Below, piece after piece: positions 56,235-64,000 of a DNA stretch of 64,000 nt. The notes under the pieces were generated by a model. The model was not told the origin of the DNA and did not search any database. It saw only the letters and a program-made list of their open reading frames with translations. The stretch's first letter is position 1. Every line of letters starts with the position of its first letter. This DNA comes from Gammaproteobacteria bacterium. Lineage in GTDB: Bacteria; Pseudomonadota; Gammaproteobacteria; Pseudomonadales; Azotimanducaceae. The stretch spans positions 32,071-96,070 of the forward strand of contig JAPOYI010000031.1 of NCBI GenBank assembly GCA_026706665.1, in the 5' to 3' direction. The position numbers and the translations under genes were made by a program.

Positions 56235-57077
56235 TCAGGGTAATGCGATCAGGTGTTCGTGGAACATTAGCGTAACCCAACCCGCCAGGGCGAGGAATGG
56301 TCCGAACGGAATCGGTTGGTCGCGCCGCATGGAGCGGGCGAGGATTGCGACCCCCGCGTAGACCAGGCCAGCCAGGGAAGCCATGAGAACTACGGACGGA
56401 AGCGCCTGCCAGCCGAGCCAGGCGCCAAGCGCCGCCAGCAACTTGAAGTCGCCGTGGCCCATGCCCTCCCGACCGGTCAGGAGCTTGAAACCCCAGTAAA
56501 CGATCCAGAGCGCGAGGTAGCCGATAGCGGCGCCCAATATGGAATCCGCCAGCGAGACATGGCCCGTGGCGAGCGCGGTCAGCACCCCGCACCAGAGCAG
56601 AGGGATCGTGATCTCGTCGGGAAGGAGCTGCGTCCGCATGTCTATGAAGGCCAGCGCGATCAGGCACGACGTGTAGAAGACAAGGGCAGAGGTGAGCCAG
56701 TCGTAGCCGAAGACCTGCACGACGAACAGGCCGCTCGCGGCCATCGCCGCCTCCACCAGGGGGTATTGCATCGAGATCCTCGAGCTGCAATGGGGACATC
56801 GCCCGCGCAGGATCAGCCAACTCAGAATCGGGATGTTGTGCCGTAGCGCTACGGGGCGGTCGCACTCCGGACACCGCGAACCCGGCACCGCGAGGTTGAA
56901 TCGTTCGTCACCGGAGGGAGATTCAGGCGGCATCTCGAGCAGTTCGTGGGCATGCCTTCGCCAATCCCGTTCGAGCATGATCGGCAGTCGATGGATGACG
57001 ACGTTGAGGAAGCTCCCGATCGCGAGAAATACGGCGGCCAGCAGGACCGCAACCACCCAGCCGTGATCCAGCAGCAT
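56235..57077 (-). CDS. pilD: Prepilin peptidase PilD
   Basis: [70 protein letters not shown]. Confidence 0.95.
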
Positions 57078-58110
57078 CAGATTCCGCCGGCGACCGCGCC
57101 GAGCTGGAAGATCGGCAGGTACATGGCGATGACCAGTCCTCCGATCAGCACCCCCAGCACGGACATGATCATGGGTTCAAGCAGTGAGGTCAGGCCCTCG
57201 ACGGCGTTGTCGACCTGTGCTTCGTAGTGGACCGCGGATCGGTCGAGCATGTCGTCCAGGGTACCGGATTCCTCGCCGACGGCGATCATCTGCACGACGA
57301 TGACGGGAAAGACCCCGCCGTTGCGCATGGCGGCGCTGATTTGACGCCCGCCTGCAACCTCGTCTCGAACTCGGCGCATCTCGCGGGCGAATACGGAATT
57401 GCCCGCCGACGCCGCTACCGAGTTCAACGCTTCGATCAGCGGAACGCCGGCGGAAATGGTGGTCGCCATGGTGCGCGCGCAACGGGCGACGGCAGACTTC
57501 CGGGCAATTCCGCCGATGATGGGCAGGCGCAGGACGATACGGTCCATCCACTCCGTGGCGGAGCGGGATCGACGCGCCGCGAGAGTTCCGGCAAGGAGCG
57601 CGGCGGCGGCAGCCAGGACCGGCAACCACCACGCCTGCGCGGACTCGGAAACCGCGATGACGAAGCGCGTCGCGGCCGGTAACTCGGCGCCGAATCCAGC
57701 GAATATCTGTTCGAATTGGGGCACCACCTTGACCAGCAGGATACCGGATACCGCCAGGGCAACGCATATCACGGCGATGGGATAGACCATTGCCTTTCGG
57801 ACTTTCGACTTCAGGCCCTCGGTTTTCTCCCTGTGCGTGGCGATCCGGTCGAGCATCGTATCCGTGGCGCCTGCGCGTTCGCCCGCATCGACGAGGTTGC
57901 AATACAGGCTGTCGAACTGGTCGGGATGCCTGCGCAGCGCCGTCGCGAACGACTCTCCTGTCGACACGTCGTTGCGGATGTCCCTCACCAGGTTCGCCAT
58001 GGACGGCTTCTCGGCGCCGGCGGCGACGATGTCGAATGCCTGCACCAACGTGACCCCGGAGCGAAGCATCGTCGCGAGTTGCCGCGTGAAGAACGCGATG
58101 TCGGACGTTT
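57077..58110 (-). CDS. pilC: Type IV pilus inner-membrane platform PilC, 5' end apparently truncated
   Basis: T2SSF domains (MLRSGVTLVQAFDIV; VPQFEQIF; GVPLIEALNSVA). The frame upstream of the first ATG (58069) also reads RQGIRSARPRRTRKSCARLLRGHPKTSDIAFFTRQLAT, but no ordinary start and no N-terminal domain before the pilB stop. Confidence 0.8.
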
Positions 58111-58200
58111 TGGGATGTCCGCGCAGCAGGCGTGCGCAGGATTTCCGCGTGCGCCGGGGGCGCGCAGACCGGATCCCCTGGCGCCGGCGCGCGGCGCGAT

Positions 58201-59928
58201 TCAGGACGGTTGCTGCCGGTCGAGCGTGATGCGGTTGATCTCGGCGAGCGACGTCGCACCCCGCGCTACCTTTTTCAGCCCGGCGGCCCTCAGGTCGTCG
58301 AATCCATGCAGCCGCGCCTGCTCCGCTATGTCTCCTGCCTCAAGGGCGATGCGCGACATCTCCGGGGTCATTTCCACGACTTCGTAGACACCCACGCGAC
58401 CCCGGTAACCGTCCCGGCACTTGCCGCAACCTCGCGGGTTCGCCTCGAACACGTCGAATCCGCCGTCCACGTCTGCCTGGGCGAAGCCTTCCCGCAGCAA
58501 TATTCCGGCAGGGACATCGATCGGCCGCTTGCACTCCGGGCACAACAGCCTGGCGAGACGCTGGGCGATGACGAGGCTTACCGATGTCGCCAGGTTGAAT
58601 GCCGCCACGCCCATGTTTCGCATGCGGGTCAAGGTCTGGGCCGCTGAGTTGGTGTGCAGTGTGGACAGCACAAGGTGTCCGGTCTGGGCGGCCTTGACGG
58701 CCATTTCGGCGGTTTCCAGGTCGCGGATCTCTCCGATCATGACCACGTCTGGGTCCTGGCGCAGGAACGACCTTAGCGCGGTCGCGAAATCGAGGCCGAC
58801 CCTGGCGTTCACATGGACCTGGTTGATCCCGTCGATGTGCATTTCCACCGGATCCTCCGCCGTTGCGATGTTGCGTGTCGGGTCGTTGAGGAGGTTCAGG
58901 CCGGCGTAGAGCGTCACTGTCTTGCCGCTGCCGGTGGGTCCGGTGACCAGGATCATCCCCTGCGGCCTTGCCAGCGCGCTGCGATAGCGGCGTTCCTGCT
59001 CGGGTTCGAAACCGAGCGCCTCGATGCCGATCCGCGCACTGGACTGGTCGAGAATCCTGAGCACGATCTTCTCGCCGAACAGCGTTGGCAGGGTGTTCAT
59101 GCGCAGGTCCATGGAGTGCGTCTCCGACAGCGTCATCTTGATCCGGCCATCCTGGGGGACCCGGCGCTCGGAAATGTCGAGTGCCGCCATGACCTTGAGG
59201 CGCGCGGCGAGCCGATTGGCGAGGTTTTGCGGAGGGGCAGACACCTCGCGCAGGATGCCGTCGGTTCGGAATCGCACCCGGTAGCGGGACGCGTAGGGTT
59301 CGAAGTGAATGTCGGAAGCGCCGGTCCGGATGGCGTCCGTCAGCGTTCTGTTCACGAACCGAACGATGGGCGTATCGTCAACCTGCTCCGCTTCATCCAT
59401 GGGCAGCGGGTCCGTTTCGATCGCCTCCAGGGAGACCTCGTCCGTGAGATTGTCAGCCGCGTGGTCGAGTGAGAAAGGGATCGCCGGTTCGCGTGACAGG
59501 TACCGTTCGATGGCGTCGCGCAGCTTGTGCGCCGCCGCGACCACGGGTTCGACATCGATGTCGGCGGCGAACTTGATCGCGTCGAGCGCGCGGACGTCGG
59601 CGGGATCCGCGATGGCGACATGCAGGGTGTTGCCGCGCCGGACAAGCGGAAGAATGTTGTGGCGCCGTATGAGTTCTTCATCGATATCCCCGGCCAGCGC
59701 ATCCGGGTCGAGGGCCTCCATGTCGATGGCGGGGACGCCGAACTCCCTGCTTGCGGACATCGCGATCGCATCGGGTTCGGCCAGGCCGTGGCGCAGCAGG
59801 TGCCTTAGCAGGGGCTCGGCGTTTCGACGCGCCGCATCGAGTGCTTCACGCGCCGCGCGCGGGGGCAGGACGCCATCATCGACCAGGCGTTGGGCCAATC
59901 CCGTCAGCGGAGGGTGCGAGGTTGCCAT
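58201..59928 (-). CDS. pilB: Type IV pilus assembly ATPase PilB
   Basis: GPTGSGKTVTLYAGLNLLN; GEIRDLETAEMAVKAAQTGHLVLSTLHTNSA; tetra-Cys zinc motif. Confidence 0.96.
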   Translation of the reverse strand: MATSHPPLTGLAQRLVDDGVLPPRAAREALDAARRNAEPLLRHLLRHGLAEPDAIAMSASREFGVPAIDMEALDPDALAGDIDEELIRRHNILPLVRRGNTLHVAIADPADVRALDAIKFAADIDVEPVVAAAHKLRDAIERYLSREPAIPFSLDHAADNLTDEVSLEAIETDPLPMDEAEQVDDTPIVRFVNRTLTDAIRTGASDIHFEPYASRYRVRFRTDGILREVSAPPQNLANRLAARLKVMAALDISERRVPQDGRIKMTLSETHSMDLRMNTLPTLFGEKIVLRILDQSSARIGIEALGFEPEQERRYRSALARPQGMILVTGPTGSGKTVTLYAGLNLLNDPTRNIATAEDPVEMHIDGINQVHVNARVGLDFATALRSFLRQDPDVVMIGEIRDLETAEMAVKAAQTGHLVLSTLHTNSAAQTLTRMRNMGVAAFNLATSVSLVIAQRLARLLCPECKRPIDVPAGILLREGFAQADVDGGFDVFEANPRGCGKCRDGYRGRVGVYEVVEMTPEMSRIALEAGDIAEQARLHGFDDLRAAGLKKVARGATSLAEINRITLDRQQPS

Positions 59929-60042
59929 GGTGTGGAGATAGACACTGTGCCTTGCAGTTTAGGCAGGGCGGCCAGTACCGTCCGCAGGACGATTGCGGTG
60001 ATTCGCGTGCGACATCCCGGACGTTTGCCATGCGCAAACTTC

Positions 60043-60128
60043 CATGGAAGTACGCATCCGGCGACGGGGCAAATGCCAGCACTTCCTTACGCGTCAGCGG
60101 TCGGGGAACATCCCCCGGCTGAAGGCTC
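60043..60128 (+). repeat. R1 repeat copy upstream of the pilin genes
   Basis: CATGGAAGTACGCATCCGGCGACGGGGCAAATGCCAGCACTTCCTTACGCGTCAGCGGTCGGGGAACATCCCCCGGCTGAAGGCTC. Confidence 0.92.
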
Positions 60129-60269
60129 CTGCCTGCCTGCCGTCATTGCCCCGGTCAGGCAGGGACGATCTCCTACCTCAAGTGGTGGCGTTGGCCCGCT
60201 TTACCCGCTGGCGCGCGGGTTTAGCATATCGGCATGGCAGTGAATCAAGGCGCTCGCATCATGAACGAA

Positions 60270-60305
60270 ACGGAAGTACGCATCCGCCCGCGGGGGAAAT
60301 GCCGG
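60270..60305 (+). repeat. Partial R1 head at the 5' end of the first pilin gene
   Basis: ACGGAAGTACGCATCCGCCCGCGGGGGAAATGCCGG vs CATGGAAGTACGCATCCGGCGACGGGGCAAATGCCAG. Confidence 0.75.
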
Positions 60306-60773
60306 ATGGAATCGCGGCCACCACGCGGACTCAGCCTGATCGAGTTGATGATCGTCGTGGCCATCGCCGGCATCCTCGCCGCCATCGCATTGCCGCTCTA
60401 TCAGAACTACGTGCTGAGCGCCAACATGGCCAAGCTGAACACCCACTACGAGGAAGGCGCGCGGTTTGTCGAGACGGAGTTGCGCAAGATCCGCTCGGAG
60501 CTTGCGATGAGTATTCGCACGCCCGCGGAGCAGGACGGTCTGCTGTCCGATGCGTACTGGGTCTCCCAACTGTCCGGCAGCGGAGGAGGCACAGCCCCCG
60601 GCGGCGGCCCTCCCTACATCGCTGGCCTGGCCGGCGACGAGACCCTGGGGCAGGTGGGCGTTGCGGAGGCGGGCGAGATCGCCAAGGGCGACTACGCGGT
60701 GGTTCTTACCCGTCCGGCATACGGCGACTTTCCGGCGGCGGCTCAGCGAACGGTGCGCTGGTCGGAGCTCTGA
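60306..60773 (+). CDS. Type IV pilin-like protein
   Basis: Class III signal GLSLIELMIVVAIAGILAAIALPLYQNYV with E5; start at 60306 or 60261. Confidence 0.85.
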   Translation: MESRPPRGLSLIELMIVVAIAGILAAIALPLYQNYVLSANMAKLNTHYEEGARFVETELRKIRSELAMSIRTPAEQDGLLSDAYWVSQLSGSGGGTAPGGGPPYIAGLAGDETLGQVGVAEAGEIAKGDYAVVLTRPAYGDFPAAAQRTVRWSEL

Positions 60774-61174
60774 TGGACGCGGCGAACGACCGGAAGAGCG
60801 GGGCTGACGCGGGCCTGAGCCTGCTGGAACTGATGGTCGCCGTCGCCATTCTCGGGATCATTGCCGCCATTGCCCTGCCGCTCTACAGGGGCTACGTCGA
60901 ATCCGCCGCGACAGGCGCGCTCGTCAACGACATCGCGACGATGGAGGTCTTTCAGGAAGACGTCATGCTGCGTACCGGCTCCTACGCGGAAGGAACCTAC
61001 GACGCCCAGTCGGGGGTGACATCCCTGACCGATGCCACGGGTTGGCGCCCGCGGGCGGACACGCGTGTCGTCTACGTCGTCGAGGAAGCCACGCCGTCGA
61101 GCTATCGGGTCACGGCGACCGATACCGATGGCCGGAGCATCTGCCGGGTCATGCCCGCAAGGACGCCCTGTTGA
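60773..61174 (+). CDS. Type IV pilin-like protein
   Basis: GLSLLELMVAVAILGIIAAIALPLYRGYVE; C-terminal Cys pair. Confidence 0.85.
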   Translation: MDAANDRKSGADAGLSLLELMVAVAILGIIAAIALPLYRGYVESAATGALVNDIATMEVFQEDVMLRTGSYAEGTYDAQSGVTSLTDATGWRPRADTRVVYVVEEATPSSYRVTATDTDGRSICRVMPARTPC

Positions 61175-61566: not shown

Positions 61567-61642
61567 GCCGGGATAGCTCAGCTGGTAGAGCACCGCATTC
61601 GTAATGCGGGAGTCCGGAGTTCGAGTCTCCGTCCCGGCACCA
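61567..61642 (+). tRNA. tRNA-Thr (anticodon CGT)
   Basis: GCCGGGATAGCTCAGCTGGTAGAGCACCGCATTCGTAATGCGGGAGTCCGGAGTTCGAGTCTCCGTCCCGGCACCA folds as a cloverleaf; encoded CCA. Confidence 0.95.
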
Positions 61643-61791
61643 AACTCCCATTTTCACTGAGAATCACAACGTTTCCAATTATCAAATAGATGACTGTTTT
61701 TTATCATAAAAATACACAATCCACGTCTTGACAAGTTCGTTGGATTGTCACAGACTCTCGCAATACTAGTGGGAAAAATAGTGGGATAAAC

Positions 61792-62952
61792 GTGGGCAAG
61801 CTGACTGCAGCGAGTGTCCGATCCGTCACAAAACCAGGTCGCTACGGTGACGGCGACACCTTGTTCCTGATGATCGCAAAGGGCGGGTCGAAGTCCTGGG
61901 TACAGCGAATCACGATCGACGGCCGCCGCCACGACATAGGTCTCGGGGGCTTTCCGCTCATCTCTCTCGCGCACGCGCGGGAGCGCGCCATGGCGAACCG
62001 GCTCGCCATCGCGGATGGCCGGAACCCGTTGACGGAGAAGAAACGGGCCCGTACTCCCACTTTCCGAAAGGCCGCCGAGGCGACATTCGAGGCGAACAGA
62101 CCGCGTTGGCGCGACGGGAAAACCGCGCGGAACTGGATGCAGGGTATGGAGAGGCGCGCGTTTCCCGTCATTGGCGACATGCGTGTCGACCAGATCCGGC
62201 GCCAAGACATCCTGAGCATACTGACGCCCGTCTGGACCGCCCACCCTGACGTGGCGCGCAAACTGCGACAGCGGGTTCGCGCGACGCTCCGCTGGTGCGA
62301 AGCACACGGCTACGTGGAGCAGAACGTGGCCGGTGAAGCCATTGATGGCGCCCTGCCGGCGATGCCTGCCGTCAAGGCGCACCATCGAGCGCTCCCCTAC
62401 CGGGATGTGGGCTCGGCACTTCGGGATATCCGCGGATGCAGTGTGTCGCCCAATGCAAAATTGTGCCTTGAGTTTCTCGTCCTCACTGCCACGCGCAGCG
62501 GAGAGGCTCGCGGCGCTCGTTGGAACGAATTGGATCTCGGCGCAAGAGTGTGGCGGATCTCGGCTGACCGGATGAAAACCAATACGGAACACGTCGTCCC
62601 CTTAAGCGAACCCGCAATGGATGTCTTGAGCCAAGCGCGTGAACTTGGCAGCGGAGACCTAGTGTTTCCCTCTCCGAGGAGACCGGGGAATGCGTTAAGC
62701 GACATGACACTAATGAAGGCGTTGCACACGGTCGGACTGGGGAAGAGGACTACCGTCCACGGCTTCCGGAGTTCCTTTCGAACATGGGCGAGCGAGTGCA
62801 CCGACGCCGATCACGCCGTTATGGAGATGAGCCTGTCACATTCCGTAGGAAGCGCCGTCGAGAGGGCTTACGCTAGAAGCGACCTCTTGGAGAAGCGCCG
62901 CTCGCTCATGTACCAATGGGGCGTTGCCTGCACGACTTTTCCCGAGGCGTAG
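61792..62952 (+). CDS. Tyrosine-type integrase (P4-like, DUF4102 N-terminus)
   Basis: GDGDTLFLMIAKGGSKSWVQRITIDGRRHDIGLGGFP; R..HGFRSSFRTW..LSHSVGSAVERAYARSD catalytic motifs; ~150 bp from the tRNA-Thr 3' end. Confidence 0.92.
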   Translation: MGKLTAASVRSVTKPGRYGDGDTLFLMIAKGGSKSWVQRITIDGRRHDIGLGGFPLISLAHARERAMANRLAIADGRNPLTEKKRARTPTFRKAAEATFEANRPRWRDGKTARNWMQGMERRAFPVIGDMRVDQIRRQDILSILTPVWTAHPDVARKLRQRVRATLRWCEAHGYVEQNVAGEAIDGALPAMPAVKAHHRALPYRDVGSALRDIRGCSVSPNAKLCLEFLVLTATRSGEARGARWNELDLGARVWRISADRMKTNTEHVVPLSEPAMDVLSQARELGSGDLVFPSPRRPGNALSDMTLMKALHTVGLGKRTTVHGFRSSFRTWASECTDADHAVMEMSLSHSVGSAVERAYARSDLLEKRRSLMYQWGVACTTFPEA

Positions 62953-62996: not shown

Positions 62997-63203
62997 GTGG
63001 AGATAATCATCGGCTTGGATGAGACGGAGAGTGGCGGGCTAGACGCCCTTTCAGGCGCTTCGCGCCGCGGATGGGGACACGGCTGCGGGAGTCCATCTCT
63101 ACTGTCACTGTCGGCCGAGGGGGACACACACGCCTCGTCTGATATTGACATCGTCGATCTGAGGCGAAACCTCGCCAGACACCTAAGGAAGGAAGCGAAA
63201 TGA
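62997..63203 (+). CDS. Small hypothetical protein translationally coupled to the next gene
   Basis: GTG start; stop TGA overlaps the ATG at 63200 (ATGA); 68 aa. Confidence 0.45.
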   Translation: MEIIIGLDETESGGLDALSGASRRGWGHGCGSPSLLSLSAEGDTHASSDIDIVDLRRNLARHLRKEAK

Positions 63204-63933
63204 CGGAACTCGAACTGCGGCCCCGGGGCATTTACTGCATAGAGACCATTTGGAATGAAATGGGGCCTCGATACGTGGAGCCTTGGATATCCTGAACTCG
63301 GCATGCCATGCACCGTACCTCTATCGACAAGCAGCCACCACGGCCGAGTTCCATGTCTGCCTGGAGGAATGGATAGATCACAGTGAGTACCCCATTCTGT
63401 ATCTTTCCTTCCATGGATCCGAGCAAGGCAAGCTGTGGTTCCGAACTATCGACGGGGGTGCGGATCTTGTGAATCATGAGGTGATCTCGGACCGGCTGTT
63501 CGAGAGATGCGAGAACAGGGTCGTGCACTTCGGAGCTTGCGGGGTGCTCCAAGAGATGGACGTCAATCAGTTCCTTAAAGACACGGGCGCGAGTGCCGTG
63601 GGCGGGTACCGGGTAGATGTGGATTGGATGCAGTCCGCCGCGTTCGATCTGCTGCTGCTGGAGTGGTTTCAGTACTACGGAAGGAAGTCCTTGACGCCCA
63701 AGGTGGCAGGGAGGGCCAGAGGGCATCTGGTCGAGGAGCCGTACAGCCAATTTGGACAGTGCGCGTTCTTGCCGGCAGCCGGGCGCGGGTGTACTCTCCT
63801 TTCCCAGATCAATCAGCCAAAAACGGTCAAACCCCTGCCGGGTTGTCCGCTGAATAAGCCGATTCAGCGTTCGGACCTGCAACCCGGACGGGCGAATAGG
63901 CGGAAATCTCAAACCGCTATCGGCGTGATTTGA
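63200..63933 (+). pseudogene. Caspase/CHAT-like protein (probably DUF6642-type), interrupted by a frameshift near 63283
   Basis: RGIYCIETIWNEMGPRYVEP in frame 1, then LDILNSACHAPYLYRQAATTAEFHVCLEEWIDHSEYPILYLSFHGSEQGKLWF...RVVHFGACGVLQ...DWMQSAAFDLLLLEWFQYYG in another frame; putative His (SFHG) and Cys (FGAC) dyad. Confidence 0.6.
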
Positions 63934-64000
63934 CCACGGCTAGGGCTGCCGAGTCATGATAAGTAGTGACTGACAACAGACTACGCATCGTGCCGCAAGG

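Follow-up and report, generated by a model that had tools for sequence, protein, structure and literature searches.

CHAT proteases (PF12770), described in forms such as SAVED-CHAT and TPR-CHAT/Csx29, act as defence effectors in type III-E CRISPR and in Borvo (PMC10952713), and SAVED-CHAT is also named in PMC11417357. The other described proteins that invite comparison are the caspases, metacaspases and orthocaspases (Peptidase_C14, p20); the definition of an orthocaspase includes cysteine protease activity after basic residues (PMC6426788). For the family DUF6642 (PF20347), we found no paper that names it among the open-access literature searched. The window analyzed here (the whole stretch of 64,000 nucleotides) carries a DUF6642 gene near its right end. 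This copy resembles its family in scoring above the curated cut-off and in keeping the HG, Cys, CIE and GY motifs, but differs from it in being split across two reading frames and in lacking the normal C-terminus. The family as a whole shares with CHAT proteins a predicted fold and order of strands, but lacks SAVED, TPR and other sensor domains, and no CRISPR neighbors were seen beside DUF6642 genes. With the caspases it shares fold matches and the arrangement of a His-Cys dyad; however, no p10 domain was recognized, and protease activity is so far a prediction. Overall, we regard the locus as a genuine copy, though probably a dead one, of an uncharacterized caspase/CHAT-fold family, carried on an element at tRNA-Thr.

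An element integrated at tRNA-Thr

The preliminary description placed the gene on a genomic island, and this was borne out by the following features, together with an empty site in a genome of the same genus and the finding of both attachment-site copies:

61567..61642, + strand: tRNA-Thr (CGU), attachment site of the element (ARAGORN)
61621..61642, + strand: attL core, the 22-bp 3′ end of tRNA-Thr, 100% identical over 22 bp to attR
61792..62952, + strand: tyrosine integrase, 386 aa (Pfam Arm-DNA-bind_3 6.7e-18, Phage_int_M 1.1e-20, Phage_integrase 6.9e-17)

The integrase begins 150 bases past the tRNA. A genome of the same genus, G005, matches the window at 97-99% identity up to the last bases of tRNA-Thr and then passes directly into a chromosomal gene, which we take from its translation to resemble nadC; attL lies at the point where synteny with G005 ends. 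The chromosomal flank of this empty site is also present in the window's own genome, on contig C71, with a second 22-base tRNA end at its junction. This is attR (L077:4228-4249), whose 22 bp are identical to attL. It follows from the empty site and from attR on C71 that the element's left end runs from position 61643 to where the contig stops and that its right end lies on C71, where it spans L077:4228-6358 including the 22-bp attR. The genome comprises 5.0 Mb in 252 contigs, with the window forming the right end of contig C115, so that the middle of the element lies between C115 and C71, outside the assembled sequence. The DNA is identified as an integrative element by the combination of a tyrosine integrase by the 3′ end of a tRNA, att sites in direct repeat and a relative whose site is empty. 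No plasmids with DNA similar to the island were found. On C71, a second integrase-like ORF, identified from its translation alone, occupies L077:5884-6357 on the minus strand and is cut by the contig end. On the other side of the tRNA, the region 56235-61174 holds genes that by translation are type IV pilus-like (prepilin peptidase, inner-membrane and ATPase components), as well as two pilin-like genes.

A DUF6642 gene in two reading frames

Beyond the integrase, the DUF6642 gene and the sequence that follows it are arranged as follows:

63200..63295, + strand: 5′ part of the gene, from ATG to a premature TGA (profile positions 7-19 matched)
63281..63285, + strand: break in the reading frame (−1 with respect to the 5′ part), with a net loss of bases relative to intact relatives (homologue alignment)
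63283..63768, + strand: 3′ part with the invariant His (FHG) and Cys (HFGAC) (PF20347 2e-7; our own profile 114.6 bits, window residues 1-162)
63769..63933, + strand: read-through tail in place of the family C-terminus (no family similarity; composition non-coding-like)
63936..64000, + strand: end of a multi-copy repeat, likely an insertion-sequence end (94-100% identity to the ends of contigs C72, C126, C191, C190, C46 and C34)

As had been proposed, the gene that starts at ATG 63200 can be read onward only if the frame changes by −1 at about 63283. A Shine-Dalgarno-like AAGGAAGGAAG lies upstream of the ATG, whose frame translates as MTELELRPRGIYCIETIWNEMGPRYVEPWIS and closes with the stop codon at 63293-63295; it is family-like as far as VEP at 63283. 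There the similarity picks up in the −1 frame at LDIL (63283) and proceeds as LDILNSACHAPYLYRQAATT..., in a second ORF of 216 aa (63283-63933, −1 relative to ATG 63200) with its stop at 63933. The 3′ part alone matches PF20347 (2e-7, 31.3 bits, compared with a Pfam gathering score of 27 bits), in agreement with the family first suggested for it. Furthermore, a family profile that we built from nine relatives, leaving the window copy out, matches both pieces, at positions 7-19 in the 5′ part and 31-186 in the 3′ part. These matches, of both pieces to one profile and of the 3′ piece to PF20347, show that the split gene is genuine rather than a chance arrangement. Base composition is coding-like across 63283-63747.

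The uninterrupted frame that a working member needs is thus broken at about 63283, whereas all 27 intact homologues have a single open frame through the break point. In all 27, moreover, a single residue separates the P from the L at this site. That residue is absent from the window copy, in which the P and L codons have one base in common where the two frames overlap, and the conserved L follows the W at a distance 7 nt shorter than that seen in the nearest relative. Since a residue and bases are absent at the break relative to these proteins, deletion fits better than ribosomal slippage. The nearest intact relatives, L014 (same genus) and L053, are about 44% identical to the window copy, and as no known relative is closer than about 45% the ancestral state of the break region is uncertain. 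The preliminary description had also raised a programmed −1 ribosomal frameshift, which would produce the full protein and would agree with the −1 relation of the frames and their short overlap. However, there is no X XXY YYZ slippery heptamer at the break, the RNA downstream of it is no more stable than shuffled sequences (z 0.31), none of the 27 intact homologues shifts here, and a −1 shift would skip a residue found in all of them; we therefore consider such a shift very improbable. A separate gene restarting at TTG 63283 was also considered and rejected, as it would lack the first strand and the sole GGAG is two bases from the codon.

The 3′ end of the gene is abnormal as well. Similarity to the family stops near 63768 and the C-terminal motif is lost; across 63748-63933, GC by codon position is 0.60/0.53/0.60. 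The read-through ORF ends a few bases before the repeat at 63936-64000, at which the window contig and six other contigs of the genome stop. This repeat probably marks where an insertion sequence ends. In each of its copies, CTAG directly precedes a common CTGCCGAGTCATGATAAG stretch, a pattern suggestive of an insertion sequence that prefers a particular target.

Decay is favored by the presence of two lesions in the same gene, the frame break and the abnormal C-terminus. We think it probable that the window holds a decayed (pseudogene) copy of DUF6642 on the tRNA-Thr element, and that intact members of the family are caspase/CHAT-fold proteins and likely His-Cys proteases. Under this model, intact DUF6642 proteins would be small stand-alone proteins of about 200 aa with a caspase/CHAT fold. 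A loss of bases from the loop that follows strand 1 would have left the first strand of the window copy in a different frame from the catalytic part; the copy's C-terminus would have been exchanged for read-through sequence extending to the repeat, and the copy would most likely yield no working enzyme. The 3′ part has all the invariant residues and a coding-like composition, which means that the gene either decayed recently or owes its break to a sequence error. Of these two, a sequence error is the less likely. A sequencing or assembly error near the contig end, masking a gene that is really intact, would accord with an assembly of 252 contigs, with the position of the gene, less than 800 bases from a contig end that lies in a repeat, and with the retention of every invariant residue. 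On the other hand, the W-to-L stretch is 7 nt shorter and lacks a residue present in 27 of 27 homologues, which a simple one-base homopolymer error fits poorly, and such an error leaves the abnormal C-terminus to be accounted for; on balance we judge it rather unlikely.

Fold and candidate catalytic residues of the family

A caspase or CHAT-like fold, with a His and a Cys that fit it, had been proposed for this gene, and both proposals stood up. Given ten aligned sequences, AF2 predicted the structure of an intact relative, L009, with good confidence (pLDDT 86.9, pTM 0.83). In the model the elements follow the order b-a-b-a-b(H)-hairpin-a-b(C)-a-b-a, which is that of the caspase fold. The invariant HG comes directly after strand 3 and the invariant Cys directly after strand 4, a placement of the dyad taken from the order of elements, without superposition; the strand order and these two positions are those of CHAT proteins. 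When the model was compared with solved structures using Foldseek, the best match was SAVED-CHAT (8tl0, 5.7e-7, probability 1.00), and nearly all of the matches listed after it were caspases, with moderate TM-scores of about 0.5. At the level of sequence, a profile match to an ancestral caspase was weak (0.025), although it aligned the HG motif. Among the profile families named in advance, DUF6642 was recovered whereas the other two were not: for CHAT (PF12770) no match rose above the cut-off, the best being 0.046 in one of ten DUF6642 members, and for Peptidase_C14 none of the ten members gave a match at E<=1.

Six features are invariant in the 27 intact homologues, namely the Glu of CIE, the Leu of P-x-L, LY, HG, the Cys and GY, and the window copy retains every one of them, including the His and Cys first singled out. 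With an invariant His predicted after strand 3 and an invariant Cys after strand 4, intact DUF6642 proteins most likely act as His-Cys cysteine proteases; we draw this as a strong inference from the modeled fold and from conservation.

Distribution, neighbors and possible role

DUF6642 relatives occur in 14 of 201 genomes of the same taxonomic family, representing 4 of its 37 genera, with up to four copies per genome, and further relatives were found in other phyla (TA06, Eisenbacteria and Opitutales). In a phylum-wide sample of 399 genomes the window copy was the single DUF6642 found, from which we conclude that the family is patchy and has multiplied in the window's lineage. Phage records and viral contigs gave no match; a search of plasmids gave one weak match, to a Brevibacterium gene annotated DUF6642. 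One further copy in the family (L060:5972-6496) is split by an in-frame stop and also looks decayed, so that decay of DUF6642 genes is not unique to the window. At L049:6132-8837, two neighboring DUF6642 genes are separated by one 430-aa ORF.

Immediately upstream of the window gene is one further ORF:

62997..63203, + strand: 68-aa ORF with a GTG start, probably not a gene (no homologue; length expected by chance)

Its TGA does share bases with the ATG at 63200-63202 (ATGA), as had been described. The interpretation placed on this overlap, that of a coupled gene, did not hold: the ORF has no homologue in the 201 genomes of the taxonomic family, no match in Pfam, NCBIfam or PADLOC and none that is significant in PHROG (best 0.049), and no comparable ORF is paired with, or found upstream of, the DUF6642 relatives. 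Moreover, when the 247-bp gap is shuffled with its dinucleotides preserved, 35% of the shuffles yield a plus-strand ORF at least as long. In all likelihood the 68-aa ORF is no gene and its ATGA overlap arose by coincidence.

These observations bear on the idea of a two-gene defense unit, in which the 68-aa product would regulate or prime a caspase-like effector and the pair would confer phage resistance. The overlap, the location on an integrated element and the use of CHAT protease effectors in type III-E CRISPR and Borvo (PMC10952713) speak for it, but the first ORF is without homologues and of a length expected by chance, the relatives lack a partner gene and lie amid unrelated, mostly housekeeping genes, and the effector in the window is broken. 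NCBIfam and PADLOC scans of both window proteins (the 68-aa ORF and the 3′ part of the DUF6642 gene) gave no match. We hold such a unit to be highly unlikely. Among 86 genes flanking DUF6642 relatives, called by simple length and base composition so that some may be wrong, no family recurs beyond three members in raw counts; most are housekeeping genes, with methylases and Uma2 scattered among them. As no neighbor recurs, DUF6642 seems to be a stand-alone gene, and these 86 neighbors included no recurring defense partner. By analogy, an immune role for DUF6642 would nevertheless be plausible because CHAT proteases serve as defense effectors elsewhere.

More broadly, DUF6642 proteins may be unrecognized small stand-alone caspase/CHAT-like proteases that have multiplied within one bacterial family, to as many as four per genome, and that act in cell death or immunity with no sensor domain fused to them, the island copy being a decayed traveler; we offer this only tentatively. 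For the family itself, a domain of unknown function gains a predicted fold and a likely catalytic His-Cys pair. Although the window copy is probably dead, DUF6642 thereby becomes a testable candidate protease.
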